This document shows positions 2,592 to 26,632 of a stretch of 27,188 nucleotides of DNA, piece after piece. Positions within the stretch are counted from its first letter, which is position 1. Each line of letters begins with the position of its first letter. This DNA comes from a virus, in the IMG/VR virus record IMGVR_UViG_3300028376_000028, positions 1 to 27,188 of that record; one strand, 5' to 3'. The notes under the pieces were generated by a model. The model was not told where the DNA came from. It did not search any database and worked only from the letters and a program-made list of their open reading frames with translations. Position numbers and translations under genes: made by a program.

Positions 2592-3517
2592 TCGTACACC
2601 TCCCAGATCTCAATAGCTCGGATCTGAATATAAGGGACATGATATTTGTGAAGGCTGTTGATCTGAGAGGTATCCGCGAGTTGAGGGCTTACCGGCCAGA
2701 CGTACATAGCGCGATCACTAGACAAGTCTTGCTTTGCAACGTGATCAAACCATTGAACCACTTCGTGATCTTCATCCACCGTCAGATTAGGCGTCAGACA
2801 ACCGACACTTGCCGTGATCTCATTGGAGCCAGCAACCGGAGCATTCGTTGAAGACCCTTCGCTATAGAATCCGTTCTTATCAGCTTTTGCTCGATACGAT
2901 GTAATAGCGGCTCCCGTATCGATCTTCGCCCAAGTCACCCGACCGTCATCGATCTTCCCGTTTCCAATGATCGCGCCTTTGCTGAATTGCGATGCTGACC
3001 GTATTTCCATGACCAGAGGCGAATAGGTTCCCTCAACTAGCCCTCTCTCATGGATGTTGTATGAGCATGAGCCAAAGCCCCATTCAGCCGGGTCCACACC
3101 GTCTTGAAACGGTGCCACTGAGGAATACTCCCAAGGATCAATAGCCGCCTTTTGGTCTCCCAAGAGCCGTAGTCTGATCTGAACTCGATCGGAACCGGCC
3201 AGAACCCCGCCTTCAGGGTTTGCGTCCAACTCACCGTTGCTGACACGACAGTAAAGACGCGCCTCGAAGCCTTTGAGACCGGGGTTTACATACCACGGCA
3301 TACGCATGACGGCAGACCAGCCAGCCACACTCACAAAAGGTCTTTCATAATCCTGTTGAGCTACGTCATTGTTGTAGCTTTCAAGCGTCAACGTGGTGTG
3401 TGAGCCTCTATTGTTGGCAACCCATTGAGCGGAATCCTTCATCCGGTTCAAGAGGTGAGTAGAGTAGCTCTCATCAGCCCCGTAGAGGTCGCTATGTGTG
3501 TGCTTGAAGTCAGCCAT
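2588..3517 (-). CDS. Tail-tip region structural protein, function unknown (309 aa)
   Basis: A 309-aa protein starting at ATG 3517, 11 nt downstream of the preceding tail gene. An AAGG lies upstream at slightly long spacing. The N-terminus (MADFKHTHSDLYG...) is followed by beta-rich sequence with conserved-looking Trp/Tyr clusters. It shares style with its neighbours: both this protein and the LamG-like one carry an internal portion resembling a jelly-roll, but I cannot name a domain. It ends in an ATGA overlap with the next gene. Likely a minor tail or baseplate protein by position. Confidence 0.8.
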   Translation of the reverse strand: MADFKHTHSDLYGADESYSTHLLNRMKDSAQWVANNRGSHTTLTLESYNNDVAQQDYERPFVSVAGWSAVMRMPWYVNPGLKGFEARLYCRVSNGELDANPEGGVLAGSDRVQIRLRLLGDQKAAIDPWEYSSVAPFQDGVDPAEWGFGSCSYNIHERGLVEGTYSPLVMEIRSASQFSKGAIIGNGKIDDGRVTWAKIDTGAAITSYRAKADKNGFYSEGSSTNAPVAGSNEITASVGCLTPNLTVDEDHEVVQWFDHVAKQDLSSDRAMYVWPVSPQLADTSQINSLHKYHVPYIQIRAIEIWEVYE

Positions 3518-3528
3518 CTATGAGCCTT

Positions 3529-5871
3529 TTACGAGTAAATATCTGCGTCTTGAGCGGGTGATCCCAGATGACCACCGGCATCAGCAAGGAAGGCATAGAG
3601 ACGGTTTGAGACGTTGGGATCATCGTACTCACTGGACCCAGCCCAACCGCTGTTTGAGTAGCTATCAACGTCTTTGAGGACGATGTAGAGGTCATCACTT
3701 GAAGCGATCGCCTCCCCCATCGTGTTGGAGAGATCGAGAGTCCAAGATCCGCCGCCTCCCGAGTCATTCACATTGAGAACAGATAGATTACCGGAATAGG
3801 CGTACCACTGCCGCCCCGTGGTGGTGACGATTTTGACGTCATCACCGGCTAGGAATCCGCTAAGACCGTCCCGATCTGGAAGAGTCTGAGAGATCTCGAT
3901 CGAGATGGTTCCGGCTGAGTAGGATTGGATCTTTGCAGCCGGAGCTACGAGACGGGGGACGCCTCCAAGATTCCAGTTGGAGAGTAGAACCCTACACACC
4001 ACGTCGTTGGTCTTGGGGTCGACGGTGCGACCTATCAGAAGTCCAATGAAGGTGATCTCTTCTTCGTCTGGCTTCTTACGTGAGCCGTCTGGCATCAAGA
4101 GACCGTCTTTGGGACCACCTTTGAGCTTCACCCAATTGAGCAGACCGGGGAGCTTCTCAGATCCTCCAACGCTCTCTAAGGGAACCTCGCATGTGAGGAT
4201 GGGAGGGTTATCTTTGCGTCTCTCAAGGTCGTTCGTCAGCTCCACATAGAGCCCACCTGAGTTACCTCTAGCGTCCATCTTGTCGCGATACCGATGAGTG
4301 ACCTCGTGTGGGCTCTGCCCGGCCATCTGGTCACTCTGAAAGCCGCTTGTATTGACTACTTTGATCCGGTCCGGTTCTTCACCGGCATCGTGACCACCAA
4401 TGGTAGCCTTGAGAGTCGAGCTGTAGTTATCGAGCCGGTAATCTAAGGGAATCTTGGTAGGGTTGAGGGTGACGTAGGAACTGTTAGCAGCGAGGCTAGC
4501 AGCATCGTCGATCTGGTAGGTGCTCCGTTGCACCAGACCAGTTTTCCCACCCTCTACAGGTACGGGATAGAAGCCGTTTGGAACCAGAAGATCTAGAATC
4601 ACGTCTTCAAAGGTATATGATCCGTCCCAGCCCAGCATGATCCGATCAATTGAACCGGGGATCTGGTCGATAGCGTTGAGCCAAGAGGCTGCATCTAGGC
4701 GATCCGCTGGGATACCTAGCCCCCAAGATCTACCCAGCACGTCAAACGTCTTGGTTGAGCTGTCAGAGGGGTCTACGAGGTTGTTATCTCCGTCCCCACT
4801 GGAGAGCATCAGAGCCAGCGCTATAGAAGCCGGTTTAGCCTCCGTATCGGATACGCCGTAGACGCCCTCAAAATCGTTTACAACGTCCCCATCACGCGCG
4901 ATTCGTGACCATCCACAGAAGAGGGTCACTTGTTCGTCAGAGTCCACGTCTTCGGACACCACCGAACCATTATCATCGTCTACGTCAGTGGACGTGTTGA
5001 ACCGAGCTGCTGCATTGACGTTCAGATAGCCGTCTTTCTTACTGGCTACAGCAGCTACGTCCCCGATCCTGACGTTGCATCTGTCAGTATCCGAATTGAC
5101 GTAGGTAGGCTCACTAGAACCGAAGTTGATCCGACCCTCTATCCAGTTGTTGGAGGTCCACTCTAACGGATGGTCTGAGAAAGCAACTGTTTCACCGCCC
5201 TCCGACCCGATAAGAGCCGCCATTTCCTGACCGGCTGAGATGATGATCTCGGTTTGCTGTTGGTTCGTGCTCAGACCATCAATGAAGCCTTCCCAAATCG
5301 TGGTTGGACCCGTCTCCCCCTTGAGGTCAAAGGATACCAGCTCGACCCCCCTACGTTTCATGTAGGGCGGCTGTGTATAAACCCCCTCTCCGATGCCATA
5401 AGTTCCAGCCGGTGAACCTGCTACGCCCCGCTCAACGGTACAGGTGTAGACGCCTCCCGAATTCGTGGACGATTGGACATAGATCGTCTCATTTCTGATA
5501 TAGAGATAGTCACCGGCTGAGATAGCCTCTGAGGACTTGATCTCAATGGAAGTCTGAGCGGTTGTCGTGACCTCTGCGTCAATCGTTGCGTCAGGTTCAC
5601 CTTGCAGACCGGCGTTACCTAGAACGCGCTTACAGATGCTCTGCGTAGCCGATAGAGCAAAGCTGAAAGCGGATACGTCTAAGCGACCCGTTTCGAGATC
5701 CACACTCTCATCAAGTGAGGCGGGGATCTCAGTTAATGCACGTTCACAGCCGTAACCAGTTGCAAGCGAAGAGGGGTCATATCCGTAGTGAAACAGAGCA
5801 CCCTCAGACTTGTATGAGTCAAGGTGAGGAATCCCCTGAATTCTGATACCTAATGAGCGGTTCTTAGCCAT
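3529..5871 (-). CDS. Large tail-tip / baseplate hub-like protein (Tal-like, 780 aa)
   Basis: A 780-aa protein starting at ATG 5871 in a TAATG overlap with the upstream stop, with a GGGGAGGTCG ribosome binding site. It is the largest protein downstream of the tape measure. In siphoviruses the order is tape measure, distal tail protein, then tail-associated (Tal/hub) protein. Residues around 120-150 contain IYVQSSTNSGG and a CTVERGVAGS segment, a phrase style common in phage tail hub proteins. Around residues 450-620 is a hub-like region with RDKMDARGN. No lysozyme or peptidase active site was seen. The hub assignment rests on size, order and partial resemblance. Confidence 0.7.
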   Translation of the reverse strand: MAKNRSLGIRIQGIPHLDSYKSEGALFHYGYDPSSLATGYGCERALTEIPASLDESVDLETGRLDVSAFSFALSATQSICKRVLGNAGLQGEPDATIDAEVTTTAQTSIEIKSSEAISAGDYLYIRNETIYVQSSTNSGGVYTCTVERGVAGSPAGTYGIGEGVYTQPPYMKRRGVELVSFDLKGETGPTTIWEGFIDGLSTNQQQTEIIISAGQEMAALIGSEGGETVAFSDHPLEWTSNNWIEGRINFGSSEPTYVNSDTDRCNVRIGDVAAVASKKDGYLNVNAAARFNTSTDVDDDNGSVVSEDVDSDEQVTLFCGWSRIARDGDVVNDFEGVYGVSDTEAKPASIALALMLSSGDGDNNLVDPSDSSTKTFDVLGRSWGLGIPADRLDAASWLNAIDQIPGSIDRIMLGWDGSYTFEDVILDLLVPNGFYPVPVEGGKTGLVQRSTYQIDDAASLAANSSYVTLNPTKIPLDYRLDNYSSTLKATIGGHDAGEEPDRIKVVNTSGFQSDQMAGQSPHEVTHRYRDKMDARGNSGGLYVELTNDLERRKDNPPILTCEVPLESVGGSEKLPGLLNWVKLKGGPKDGLLMPDGSRKKPDEEEITFIGLLIGRTVDPKTNDVVCRVLLSNWNLGGVPRLVAPAAKIQSYSAGTISIEISQTLPDRDGLSGFLAGDDVKIVTTTGRQWYAYSGNLSVLNVNDSGGGGSWTLDLSNTMGEAIASSDDLYIVLKDVDSYSNSGWAGSSEYDDPNVSNRLYAFLADAGGHLGSPAQDADIYS

Positions 5872-6785
5872 TACGACCTCCCCGACTTCTTGTAATTCGC
5901 TAGGCCGTCAACATCGGGATGATCTGAGGGTAGACGCTGCATGGTCAGCTCAAGATCATAGCTTCTGACACCTGAATCTGTCTCTGTGATCGAGGCTCTC
6001 GATTCTTCGGCGTACTTCGAGCCTTTGGGCGACCATAAGACCTCCCAATCTTGGTCTAGACTGAGGCTGGTAGGCTGACCGTGGACCATGATGACATCAG
6101 CTTCGTAGTCCGAGATCCCGTGTTCCCAAAGATCATGCCAGTAGTTGCCATGATCCCCGGTCGCTAGCTTAGCTGATGACGCAAACGAGGAGTCATCGTT
6201 GGTGTTGGGGTATACGTGACCTTCTGGGACTTCACGGAACCGAATAAGGCGGTATTCATCGTCGCCCCATCTCTGGTTGACGACGTGATCCCTACGGCCA
6301 TTGTTTCTGTACTGCTCTTTAGCGGCATAGAAGTCGATCTTGGGGATCGCAAAACCCATTGGTCTAGGTGACTGCCAGACGCCATAACGGGAGAAGTCCG
6401 AGACGACTTCATCACCAAAGGATGTAAGGTGATCGCCAGTGTTGGCGTTGAAGCCTACAAGCCGGTAATCAAAGTCACCGAAATCAGTCCGCCAGCCATA
6501 CTCACCAGCCCCCCCAGCCCCACCGGTGCCAACCGTGGTGATACCGGCTTTATCGAACTCGTCTGACTGGATAGGCAGATCACAAGAGAAGCTGTAAGAC
6601 CCATTCACTTCGGCGTTGATAGCCGATTCTAGAGCGTCATAGAGGCTAGGCCATTTGGTCGACACCTGACCCCGATAGGCGTAGTAAGTCCCCGGTGTGA
6701 GGGTGACACCGAAGCCAATTCCGGCTTGCCGGAAGACTGCCGTATTGTTGTCAGCCGTGATTTCGATTGGATACAAAAAATACAT
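5871..6785 (-). CDS. Tail protein, probable distal-tail-like component (304 aa)
   Basis: The start is placed at ATG 6785, overlapping the tape-measure stop as TGATG, with GGGGGA about 6 nt upstream; a GTG at 6788 would add one residue. The N-terminal region (MYFLYPIEITADN, then TPGTYYAYRG) and the glycine-rich GTGGAGGAGEYGWRTD segment look beta-structured. It lies directly after the tape measure, the usual position of the distal tail (Dit) protein, and before a 780-aa hub-like protein. The Dit role is inferred from synteny; no diagnostic motif was recognised. Confidence 0.75.
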   Translation of the reverse strand: MYFLYPIEITADNNTAVFRQAGIGFGVTLTPGTYYAYRGQVSTKWPSLYDALESAINAEVNGSYSFSCDLPIQSDEFDKAGITTVGTGGAGGAGEYGWRTDFGDFDYRLVGFNANTGDHLTSFGDEVVSDFSRYGVWQSPRPMGFAIPKIDFYAAKEQYRNNGRRDHVVNQRWGDDEYRLIRFREVPEGHVYPNTNDDSSFASSAKLATGDHGNYWHDLWEHGISDYEADVIMVHGQPTSLSLDQDWEVLWSPKGSKYAEESRASITETDSGVRSYDLELTMQRLPSDHPDVDGLANYKKSGRS

Positions 6786-22690: not shown

Positions 22691-22770
22691 CGGGGAGCCT
22701 GTAAAAGCAATGGTAATCTTCGCGCAACGATTTCACTTCGGTGAACACATCACTGTCTTTGAGATAACGG

Positions 22771-22828
22771 ATTTTCCACAGATGGCTATGCCTATATATA
22801 CTAGAGGGTATGACCATCTGTGGAAAAT
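22771..22828. promoter_or_regulatory. 15-bp inverted repeat with TTTTCCACA, around an AT-rich centre
   Basis: ATTTTCCACAGATGG (22771-22785) is perfectly repeated in inverse at 22814-22828. TTTTCCACA differs from the E. coli DnaA box TTATCCACA at one position and is a known DnaA-box form in some bacteria. The 28-bp centre holds CCTATATATACTAGAG, which could be a -10 region or an unwinding site. An operator controlling a promoter for the leftward small genes is the alternative. Confidence 0.8.
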
Positions 22829-22840
22829 ATGAGGCTGAAC

Positions 22841-22852
22841 CCCTCTAGAGGG
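22841..22852. promoter_or_regulatory. 12-bp palindrome CCCTCTAGAGGG
   Basis: A perfect palindrome 12 bp beyond the 15-bp inverted repeat. A half copy, CTAGAGGG, lies inside that repeat's centre at 22801-22808. This looks like an operator for a dimeric protein. Confidence 0.55.
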
Positions 22853-22944
22853 TGTTCTGAGAGGTGAATGAGTAACTGAGTAACTGTGATTGCACTGGGT
22901 ATCCCAGCAGACAACTGAACAAGTGTCAAGTGCCTTGTGGTTGC

Positions 22945-23264
22945 TGTTACAGGTGTGTTACGTCAAAAAGCGGGGTTGTTACAGACCTTGTAACAGCAAA
23001 TCCCCTAGCATTTACAAGGGGTTAAGCCTTGCTGTTACAAATGTTACAGATTCTGGGGGTAGTAAAAGAATATACTGTAAGAGGGGGTGTGTCCGTGGTT
23101 GGTTACGGCTGAGAGTTTATTATTTATTATATCTATTATTCTTGTAACATTTGTAACACCCCCCCTAAAATCGCCGTTTGGTAACGCCCACGGGCCGATT
23201 TTTGCTGTTACAAATGCTGTTACAAACCCGATCCGACTTGTAACAATTGTAACGATCTGTAACA
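22945..23264. repeat. Iteron-like array: 13 copies of TGTTACA / TGTAACA
   Basis: Forward units (TGTTACA) begin at 22945, 22956 (ending G), 22977, 23033, 23042, 23206 and 23218; inverse units (TGTAACA) begin at 22989, 23143, 23152, 23239, 23248 (ending G) and 23258. Many neighbours are spaced 9-12 bp, close to one helical turn. The array adjoins the end of the primase-helicase gene and surrounds an AT-rich stretch. Iterons next to a helicase-primase gene are the layout of phage and plasmid origins. Confidence 0.85.
23115..23140. other. AT-rich stretch inside the iteron array (possible unwinding element)
   Basis: Twenty-six bp with only one G and one C (GTTTATTATTTATTATATCT, then ATTATT), in contrast to GC-rich surroundings. 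It lies 2 bp before a pair of inverse iteron units. A DNA unwinding element is the natural reading. Confidence 0.6.
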
Positions 23265-23296
23265 AAAAGGCCGGACCCAACAAAAAGGCCGGACCC
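23261..23296 (-). repeat. Exact 18-bp tandem duplication of a terminator arm
   Basis: AACAAAAAGGCCGGACCC occurs twice in direct tandem. On the minus strand each copy gives GGGTCCGGCC followed by TTTTTGTT, that is the 3' arm plus U-tract of the terminator below. Confidence 0.92.
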
Positions 23297-23309
23297 TTAC
23301 GGTCCAGCC
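23281..23309 (-). terminator. Intrinsic terminator after the primase-helicase gene
   Basis: On the minus strand GGCTGGACC and GGTCCGGCC pair over 9 bp (one G-U) around a 5-nt loop, followed by TTTTTG, 28 nt after the primase-helicase stop. The second copy of the 3' arm and U-tract could form an alternative longer-loop terminator. Confidence 0.88.
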
Positions 23310-23336
23310 CCTTTGAATCCGCCACGGACTCGGTGC

Positions 23337-26300
23337 TTAGTCGTCGATATCAACCATCAACGAATCCAAATCCGGCAAAGGTTGAGCGTCCCCTTCTTCG
23401 ACGTCCACTTGATGTAGATAGACCGTGTACCACCGTTGCAATGAACCCCCGACTCTCCAAGCCTTATCGGGTCTGGCAACAAGGCCTTGGTCAGCCAGCC
23501 AATCAAAAAGCTGGGACGCTGTACAGCCCGCTCCCTTGGTCACACCGGAAGCGTCCAGCATAGAGGGGGTCGTATATAGTCCGTCACGTCTGGTTTTCCC
23601 GTCTTCCGATACACCGGCAAAACGAACCCCAAACGCCTCGTGTGCTCGGTCGTAGTCTGTTTCAACGGGGAATCTCGCCGGTTGGGCCGCAGCCATGTTT
23701 TGCAACACGGACCAAGCCCTAGCCTCGGGGGTCGTAACATCTCCCCTACTTCCGATGATTCGCTCTTTCACCACTTCAACCGCATATTCGACAAAGCTGC
23801 GGTTCCCATATTCCTCTTTCGTCTCAGCCCACGATTCCGGCAAGATCCCCACAAAATCAGCGAGCGCCAGAGCGGTATATACGATAGCTACCTGCTCCAT
23901 GATCCGGACGTTTTCGCCGTTTTCGATTCCGCTGATCAGGATATCTTGCGATTTGCGATGAAACGCCCGAACCCCGTCGAGGTTCGGCTGGTTAATCATC
24001 CATTGAATGAACGTCCTTCCGGCTACACCGTAGTTTTGCTGAAAACGCTCCCGGATCGCTTCGGCATGGTCCCGATCGATAGTGACCTCGCCCCGTTCGA
24101 TCGGCACATCAAGCATACGAACCGTCAGACCACCTTGAACGTGATCCGCGCCGATCCAATCAGTGATGGTGTTCTCACCGGTTGAAAGCGCTGTACAGGA
24201 CCATGAGCGCGTTTGTACGACCTCCGTACCCGACCGGTTAGACCGCCGCCGCCCTTCACCGTCAGCAAAGGAATAGACGAATTTCCGAACGTGGCGGGGG
24301 TCACATTCCTGCAGCTCGTCGAGAATCATACACGCACCACTGTAATCTTGCGCAGCGATTTCGTGCCCGTTCTTGGTGCCGTCCCAGCTTTTGATCAAGG
24401 ACCGGGGGTTGCCCCAGACCGACGAAGCGGCATAAAGCGAGCGGCTTTTCCCGCTGGAACTCGCCCCCGCCAGATGGACACCAAACGGATCCCGATCCAA
24501 AACGTGAAGTAGCGGACCCGCCAGCGACACACCTAACGCAAAGGCTAGGTACGGCGTCGTGACCGTCTCTTCAACGGCGTCTTTCCAGTCGTCGAGGGTT
24601 CCCTTTTCCTGCCCTCTCAGAGCCGTGTGTGCGCCCTCGGCGTACCAATCAGCCCCCATCACCTGTGTACCGTTGACGTAGACCGCCTGACCGTCGTCAT
24701 CGTGCCACCCACTACGCCGAACGACCGTGGATTCCTTGACGTCCCGCGCTTCAGAGTACCATTCACCCAACATTTCGCAGAAATCCCCACCACATCGCGG
24801 TTGAATTTGAACGCCGGCTTTAGCGGCAGCACCGGCTGCGTTTTTGGCCGCCGTCGAATCGACCCACGCATCTGCTTCAAGTGTCCCGTACCGTACCCGG
24901 CCCTTTCGATCATGATAACGGTACCGAACCCCGTAATCCCCGGACCCCTGAACCCGTACTATCGACAGAGGCCAGACCTCTCGAGCTATGGTTGCCGTCT
25001 CGTCGTGAAACCACTTCCCCGCATCTGAATCATACGCCCACTTTTCCTTTTTACAGATGAAACCGATTTGCCACCGGGTCGAGCTAGCATACGGGGGACC
25101 GTCGCCGAGGCGAACGTCCCGCGTTTCCGTCTGTTCGTGGAAGTCAACATAAGCGTCCTTGTCCGTTTGCAGGATCACAACGGCGTTATCCGACCCTTCC
25201 TTGTTACAGCCGGCCAGACGCTTCAACCGCTGGAGCTGTCGCATGGATTCATCCCGTTTCAGAGCGCCTAGCTCTCCCTCCGGGATATCACCGGCCTCGG
25301 CCCACTGATCAACTACCTGTTGGATCGCGGCGTCAATCAGCTCGTGACGTTGTTCGAATTCATCCTCGGTACTAGCTCGCTGATCGTCCGTACATTTGAA
25401 CGAAACGTGCATCTTTGCCCGATCTTCGTCGGTCGGGTCAGGCGTGGTCATTTCGACAGCGCACGCCGGTAGCCCTCGTTTGCCCAGAGTCCTGACGATA
25501 CGGTTAACCAGCGAGATCAAGGGCTTTCTATCGTCGGACCCGTCAAAATCGACCACATACAGATGACCACCATAGCCACCATGCAGCCCCTCTTTCGCCG
25601 CGCTCTTTGTCCAGCCTCCCCACATACGGTTAACCGGTGCGTCAAGAGGCGCACCTTCGACCCGATTTTCCTCTTTTTTCGGCTTGGTCAAGATGCGATC
25701 ACCGAGCCAGATGCCTCCCGGCACGATGCAAATAGCATCGACGTAATACGCCAGCGATACCCGGTCCCACTCTAGGTCTGCCGCTTCGCAATATTGCCGG
25801 AGTTGGTCCATAACCTCATCCGGGGCCGACCCGTTTACCAGTGCCGCTAGTTCGGCACGTCGCGTGAGTTGCGGAGGCTTGTTTTGCGCTTCCATACGCA
25901 GCCGTCTTGCCCGTGCGATCCGGCTAGATAGCTGCCGCTGCGGCTCGTAGTTCGTCCACATGTCGTACTGTTCGGCAATCCAGTCAGCCGCAGCCCGCTT
26001 TTCCTCTTTGGTCAACTCACCGGCGTCATATTTCCCGGCTTGCCATTGTGCGACAAGCTCGATGGGTCCGCCGCCGATCCCCGTTTTATGGTGAACATAA
26101 AGATTCTTTCCGCTGGCAAACTGGATTTTTGCCGTGTCCGTGTGCAGTTCGTGGGGAAACGAATGCCGCCCCTGACCGTGGTCGTATACGCCTATATCAG
26201 CGGCTACGAGCTGGATATCCAGCTCGGCCCGAATCCGGTCGTAATCCACCTGACGGCGGTACGTGCCGCCTCCGGTCCAAGGGATGATATCCCCATGATC

Positions 26301-26447
26301 GTCACGGGGGACTTCTTCAAAACCTATTTCGCGCTCTGCGGGTTCGGTTGTTACGCTATCTTCTGTCTCGATGTTTTTCGCTTCTTCTGACATTGGTTGC
26401 TCCTGGTTGATCTGGTATACCTTTGAAGGCTCTTTCACTTTTCCCAT
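23337..26447 (-). CDS. Primase-helicase with DUF927 ATPase domain (1036 aa)
   Basis: Start at ATG 26447 with GAGG upstream; it overlaps the end of the 60-aa gene region. A second in-frame ATG at 26393 has an equally good GGAG. Residue numbers count from the GTG at 26453. Region 70-135 resembles a CHC2 primase zinc domain but lacks the cysteines (FPHELHTD, HHKTGIGGGPIELV). Residues 298-430 look like an AEP primase: LYVVDFDG (Asp302, Asp304), KMHVSFK (His349), and RLAGCNKEG like the R-x-PGT-N-K block. The DUF927 ATPase has GASSSGKS (663-670) and MILDELQE (709-716). It probably primes and unwinds phage DNA at the adjacent iteron region. Confidence 0.85.
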   Translation of the reverse strand: MGKVKEPSKVYQINQEQPMSEEAKNIETEDSVTTEPAEREIGFEEVPRDDHGDIIPWTGGGTYRRQVDYDRIRAELDIQLVAADIGVYDHGQGRHSFPHELHTDTAKIQFASGKNLYVHHKTGIGGGPIELVAQWQAGKYDAGELTKEEKRAAADWIAEQYDMWTNYEPQRQLSSRIARARRLRMEAQNKPPQLTRRAELAALVNGSAPDEVMDQLRQYCEAADLEWDRVSLAYYVDAICIVPGGIWLGDRILTKPKKEENRVEGAPLDAPVNRMWGGWTKSAAKEGLHGGYGGHLYVVDFDGSDDRKPLISLVNRIVRTLGKRGLPACAVEMTTPDPTDEDRAKMHVSFKCTDDQRASTEDEFEQRHELIDAAIQQVVDQWAEAGDIPEGELGALKRDESMRQLQRLKRLAGCNKEGSDNAVVILQTDKDAYVDFHEQTETRDVRLGDGPPYASSTRWQIGFICKKEKWAYDSDAGKWFHDETATIAREVWPLSIVRVQGSGDYGVRYRYHDRKGRVRYGTLEADAWVDSTAAKNAAGAAAKAGVQIQPRCGGDFCEMLGEWYSEARDVKESTVVRRSGWHDDDGQAVYVNGTQVMGADWYAEGAHTALRGQEKGTLDDWKDAVEETVTTPYLAFALGVSLAGPLLHVLDRDPFGVHLAGASSSGKSRSLYAASSVWGNPRSLIKSWDGTKNGHEIAAQDYSGACMILDELQECDPRHVRKFVYSFADGEGRRRSNRSGTEVVQTRSWSCTALSTGENTITDWIGADHVQGGLTVRMLDVPIERGEVTIDRDHAEAIRERFQQNYGVAGRTFIQWMINQPNLDGVRAFHRKSQDILISGIENGENVRIMEQVAIVYTALALADFVGILPESWAETKEEYGNRSFVEYAVEVVKERIIGSRGDVTTPEARAWSVLQNMAAAQPARFPVETDYDRAHEAFGVRFAGVSEDGKTRRDGLYTTPSMLDASGVTKGAGCTASQLFDWLADQGLVARPDKAWRVGGSLQRWYTVYLHQVDVEEGDAQPLPDLDSLMVDIDD

Positions 26448-26449
26448 GT

Positions 26450-26632
26450 TCACCTCGTATAAGTCTCATCAAACGCCAGCTTTAGCTCACGTTCCCTATT
26501 TTCGCTGAGATCATTTTCCCGAATATCCCAGCCTGTCTTGCCTTTCACCTCTACCCTAGCTGTGTCGTCGCCGTAGACGATTCGCCACGTATCGGAGAGG
26601 TAGTAAAAATTAGTTTGCTTTTGCCTGTTCAT
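26450..26632 (-). CDS. Small hypothetical protein (60 aa)
   Basis: A 60-aa protein starting at ATG 26632 with GAGGAG 6 nt upstream. It has a YYLSDTWRIVYGDD beta segment, VEVKGKTGWD, and a helical charged end (RERELKLAFDETYTR). Its stop TGA lies 3 nt before the primase-helicase ATG, so it is co-translated with it. Its ribosome binding site is inside a hairpin. Function unknown; a replication accessory role is suggested only by coupling. Confidence 0.72.
   Translation of the reverse strand: MNRQKQTNFYYLSDTWRIVYGDDTARVEVKGKTGWDIRENDLSENRERELKLAFDETYTR

Follow-up and report, generated by a model that had tools for sequence, protein, structure and literature searches.

The window analysed here, a stretch of 27188 bases that makes up one complete IMG/VR virus record and is probably a genome fragment, hosts at 22945-23264 an array of short repeats which, judged by comparison with related loci, is very probably the replication origin of a tailed phage, organized as the origins of SaPIs. 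This is the best-supported reading of the region. The array is located next to a gene encoding a DUF927 helicase, the proposed initiator, and in related helicases the bases of the repeat vary together with a few residues of the protein. The window element belongs to a known type of origin. The residue-to-base code appears new among the PMC literature searched, in which no paper joining DUF927 and iterons was found besides PMC7581432.

As counted by the first-pass annotation, thirteen TGTTACA/TGTAACA units, 11 exact and 2 near, are found within 320 bp, and their spacing is often 9-12 bp, outer units included. The near matches, TGTTACG at 22956 and TGTAACG at 23248, differ each for one end base. 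Exact TGTWACA matches are 12 in the full 27-kb window, whereas 100 shuffles averaged 1.5 and never exceeded 6, and the array is thus far above chance. Units are organized in two inverted arms enclosing a 94-bp core. The left arm (22945-23048, plus strand) includes TGTTACA units at 22945, 22977, 23033 and 23042, the near match at 22956, and one opposite-strand TGTAACA unit at 22989. The right arm (23143-23264, minus strand) includes TGTAACA units at 23143, 23152, 23239 and 23258, the near match at 23248, and opposite-strand TGTTACA units at 23206 and 23218. The inner pairs, TGTTACAAATGTTACA at 23033-23048 (plus strand, with a 9-bp period) and TGTAACATTTGTAACA at 23143-23158 (minus strand), form a perfect 16-bp inverted repeat, the two copies lying 94 bp apart. 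The core between them (23049-23142) is the proposed unwinding region, and contains the 26-base stretch with the highest AT content in the region (23114-23139, 24/26 A/T, 92%), correctly described at the outset as flanked by the repeated units.

Going along the minus strand, the stop codon of the DUF927 helicase gene (23337) is followed by a terminator-like hairpin with a T run (23273-23296), 3' of the gene, and then by the array. Multiple short direct repeats, grouped on either side of an AT-rich region and located directly downstream of a DUF927 helicase gene, distinguish origins of the SaPI Rep type, and are all found in the window. The gene (23337-26453, minus strand) encodes a protein of 1038 amino acids, the nearest solved structures being SaPIbov1 Rep (8tch) and Cch (5dgk). 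The array had been described as abutting the terminator of a primase-helicase gene. Terminator-like hairpin and helicase are both there, but only half of the term primase-helicase is borne out, because Pfam detected in the protein the DUF927 helicase domain alone, and no primase domain.

A strong hairpin (22771-22828, DNA fold z = -5.4), carrying TTTTCCACA in both arms, and then the 12-bp palindrome CCCTCTAGAGGG (22841-22852) are also found beside the array, spanning together 22771-22852. Both had been noticed in the first reading and are real, and the hairpin is a candidate element beside the putative origin. The DnaA-like boxes claimed for the region are in contrast just the two TTTTCCACA copies in the arms of this one hairpin. 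The window shows a weak excess of TTWTNCACA sequences (4, versus an expectation of 1.0, with at least 4 in 2/100 shuffles), and the DnaA-box cluster of a DnaA-dependent origin was not found in the window. GC skew was computed on a fragment of a single genome with strand bias. It does change close to the array, yet the plus strand features at ~23 kb a local maximum, and not the minimum expected at an origin. DnaA boxes and GC skew were dropped as origin evidence, as there is neither a box cluster nor a skew minimum.

The same layout is found right after the helicase gene in annotated phages encoding DUF927 helicases. The iteron is often different, being GTTCCC in the SaPI-like PT1028, GGTTACC in THSA-485A, TTTCACC in FP_Epona and GTTCCCC in phiAH14b. 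Significant iteron arrays were identified directly downstream of the helicase gene in 71/80 DUF927-helicase loci, a partly redundant set. Arrays were scored as significant when the best 6-mer count over the first 500 bp past the stop codon was higher than in all 100 first-order shuffles. The mean best 6-mer count is 9.3 downstream of the DUF927 genes, versus 4.5 in a stretch inside the same genes. The core gap of the 57 non-redundant arrays with a gap has a median length of 94 bp, equal to that of the window, and unit orientation is opposite across the gap in 49 of them; the first unit is found at a median distance of 12 bp past the stop codon. The AT excess of the gaps is partly due to selection, because the AT-richest gap was the one taken as core. 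The search suggested by the first-pass annotation, for an array conserved on the downstream side of DUF927 genes, was therefore positive, and lends comparative support to the notion of an iteron origin beside its helicase. No close relative having both the window helicase and the array was found; the search of viral contigs with the whole window helicase yielded no relative, and relatives of the window identified by terminase are without DUF927. Because of this, conservation of the window's own array is seen through distant relatives alone.

Pattern searches indicate that unrelated phage contigs share the two-armed array of TGTTACA units. Fourteen places on 13 other viral contigs, ranging from 31 to 54% GC, match a pattern in which 28 bases are fixed (two TGTTACA units, then a gap of 85-110, then two TGTAACA units). 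A slightly wider pattern was found at 20 places in genomes of Bacteroidota, Firmicutes, Acidobacteria, Proteobacteria, Synergistetes and in a methanogen bin, the chance expectation for the genome collection being, by simple arithmetic, about one in ten thousand. Replication genes adjoining the arrays encode a CHC2 zinc finger associated with DUF927, PrimPol-DUF3987, VapE, PrimPol-DUF5906, a DnaG-like protein with DUF5906, and CHC2-Toprim-AAA_25, and some TGTTACA arrays have no adjacent helicase of these kinds. Use of the array by VapE was considered as a general rule and discarded, because VapE relatives of L026 have none. In L025 (980-1183) and L033 (4201-4404) the TGTTACA arrays are upstream of a PrimPol-DUF3987 helicase; since the C-terminal HTH of this helicase looks resolvase-like, an unrelated domain may read the same heptamer. 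One 47818-base phage contig (L030/L034) has two two-armed arrays, one located by an integrase gene, the other by small terminase genes. The array in L048 adjoins a large terminase-like protein (2600-5986) hosting an intein with a LAGLIDADG endonuclease domain. In L053 (346-562) and L040 (325-448) the array is found within the 3' end of an open frame, and the 9-bp period corresponds to C-terminal V-T-x repeats.

Lone intergenic two-armed arrays are found in the chromosomes of Bacteroidales (L042, L046, L049, L051, L052, L056, L058), Ruminococcus (L045, L047) and Xanthocytophaga (L039, L050). Most of these genomes have 1-3 lone arrays. Phage genes are absent from the surroundings of the arrays, and no DUF927 gene was found in the genomes, Bacteroidales and others, that host them. 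Bacteroidales lone arrays have in common arms with GCGTTACAGTTGTTACAGTT, and a core containing an AT palindrome. The hypothesis that they mark the chromosomal origin was rejected, as no skew switch is seen on a 298-kb contig and neighbours vary. It is conceivable, if rather improbable, that two-armed TGTTACA arrays are an origin module exchanged across phyla and used by unrelated phage helicases (DUF927, DUF3987, VapE, DUF5906, RecA-like), the lone Bacteroidales copies being functional as well, either as origins of minimal parasites, or decoys, or sites for host proteins exploited by phages.

The alignment across all DUF927 types is too diverse to be used for scanning. Mutual information was measured in 40 non-redundant helicases of the CHC2-DUF927 subfamily, the best sampled one, at 728 variable columns. 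The iteron register AG(G/T)N G NN A NN was set by eye before residues were inspected (AGGTGTAACA, AGGCGTAAGG and AGTGGGAACA are examples of CHC2-DUF927 iterons), and residues are numbered according to L029. In this set of sequences iteron bases covary with three residues, 827, 831 and 833, all in one beta-strand of the C-terminal winged-helix domain, a result which points to few helicase residues that read the repeat. Among the 728 columns, the top covariate of iteron position 4 is residue 827, that of position 6 is residue 831, and that of both positions 9 and 10 is residue 833. Helicases with R833 have C9 iterons in 19/19 cases and those with W/Y833 have G9 in 21/21; E827 is similarly associated with C4 (10/10) and R/H827 with G4 (5/5). 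As to the end bases of the iteron, R833 corresponds to CA, W833 to GG, and the single Y833 to GA. At position 6, A is found with M831 and T with V/I831. For positions 3 and 7, no residue stands out as a convincing partner among the 40 helicases. In 200 label shuffles (shared ancestry retained) at most one of positions 4, 6 and 9 pointed to the strand, versus three out of three in the observed data. On a tree constructed without the C-terminal region, 9 changes are needed for iteron position 9, and 10 changes for the joint state of this position with residue 833, corresponding to about nine independent switches. Close pairs change as the code says: E827 to V is accompanied by C to T in L165/L172, and V or I to M is accompanied by T to A in L157/L111 and L153/L121.

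Six loci not used for training (L215, L289, L216, L220, L226 and L227, of which L215 and L289 have one wing in common) mostly obeyed the code, position 4 being correct in 5/5 and position 9 in 5 of the 6 testable cases. A locus sharing 94% identity with one of the training sequences, and three loci without a recognisable array, were left out of the test. Outside the coded subfamily, L054 and phiAH14b feature R where residue 833 aligns, and their iterons end with ACA. The window helicase sits in a different DUF927 branch, ~20-25% identical to the coded subfamily. Its C-terminal region (residues 860-1038, 23340-23876 on the minus strand) is predicted to hold a winged helix, with helices and a wing; the structure model of the domain had no confident PDB match. 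R1000 aligns with the specificity residue R833, for which the code predicts CA, and CA is found in the window iteron. R994 aligns, at a place where the alignment is gapped, with residue 827, for which the code predicts G, and T is found. Of the two positions that can be checked in the window protein, one agrees with the code.

Other functions may be envisaged for the array. It could be an operator, a set of sites through which a phage repressor or regulator controls either the helicase operon or genes lying left of it. The TGTWACA unit comes close to a palindrome, the region has more promoter-like matches than expected (5 versus 1.4), and HTH and integrase genes adjoin the array in some relatives. 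Yet, the array is found downstream, and not upstream, of the helicase gene in the window and in most relatives, residues in the C-terminus of the helicase itself covary with iteron bases, and the conserved AT-rich gap of ~94 bp with inverted arms suits an origin instead, all of which makes an operator very unlikely. A dual use, in which the sites serve as origin and also repress neighbouring transcription via the initiator or a different protein, does not conflict with the main reading, and overlaps it. Iteron initiators of plasmids often autoregulate, and both the promoter-like matches and the contig with two arrays, near integrase and near terminase genes, speak for a dual use, but the array is not upstream of the initiator gene, and we consider this additional role doubtful.

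Inverted arms flanking a ~100-bp core are also reminiscent of arm-type integrase sites (attP), or of the ends of a transposable element, and four related arrays have an integrase gene alongside. An integrase was however not recognised anywhere in the window, most related arrays are adjoined by replication genes, and the units covary with a helicase domain, so that sites of this type are extremely improbable.

If the region is an origin, the C-terminal winged-helix domain of the DUF927 helicase encoded in the window would bind the TGTTACA iterons, the beta-wing reading the bases. Two helicase hexamers would load head to head, because the arms point in opposite directions, and would assemble at the two sides of the 94-bp AT-rich core. 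The hexamers would then melt the core and unwind DNA both ways, leading to bidirectional replication. The element would be a helicase-origin pair in an uncultured phage. The family may be regarded as a natural library, in which the layout is constant, and the iteron changes together with three residues of the wing. If the code is true, protein sequence partly reveals which origin a DUF927 phage or satellite uses, and the way in which closely related elements avoid origin cross-talk is explained.

The P4 alpha protein is also a phage helicase binding iterons, at P4 ori, but both helicase family and iteron are other than those of the window. The parallel with P4 made in the first-pass annotation is supported as to an iteron origin beside a helicase; the SaPI Rep origin, however, is a better parallel than P4. 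According to PMC7581432, SaPIbov1 features, as the window, a DUF927 helicase, Rep, with iterons directly downstream of its gene. According to the same paper, which cites Ubeda 2007, these iterons, found just downstream of rep, are bound by the C-terminal domain of Rep; for the window helicase such recognition is a prediction. The SaPI-like PT1028 has a two-sided array around an AT-rich stretch, as found in the window. The two systems differ because the iteron is TGTTACA in the window and of the GTTCCC type in SaPIs, and the window is a tailed-phage genome, whereas SaPIs are satellites. Window helicase and SaPIbov1 Rep are ~20-30% identical over the core. Cch2, acting at the putative SCCmec origin, is similarly a self-loading helicase whose C-terminal domain binds downstream direct repeats, but belongs to the D5 type and has three AAGTG iterons (PMC7581432), whereas the window features a DUF927 helicase and ~13 units. 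AlphaFold2 places the code residues in the beta-wing of a winged helix. The domain of L044, a relative, matches both SaPIbov1 Rep (8tch) and TcpK bound to oriT of plasmid pCW3 (5vfx) with a Foldseek probability of 1.00. TcpK is a winged-helix protein which binds a 9-nt sequence, its box, in tandem repeats. Its beta-wing occupies the major groove, where the recognition helix does not sit, and wing residues contact DNA (PMC6137059). TcpK is a small stand-alone dimer involved in conjugation, whereas the window domain is part of a helicase at a putative origin. Binding mode of TcpK and fold matches are independent facts, and both fit the code.
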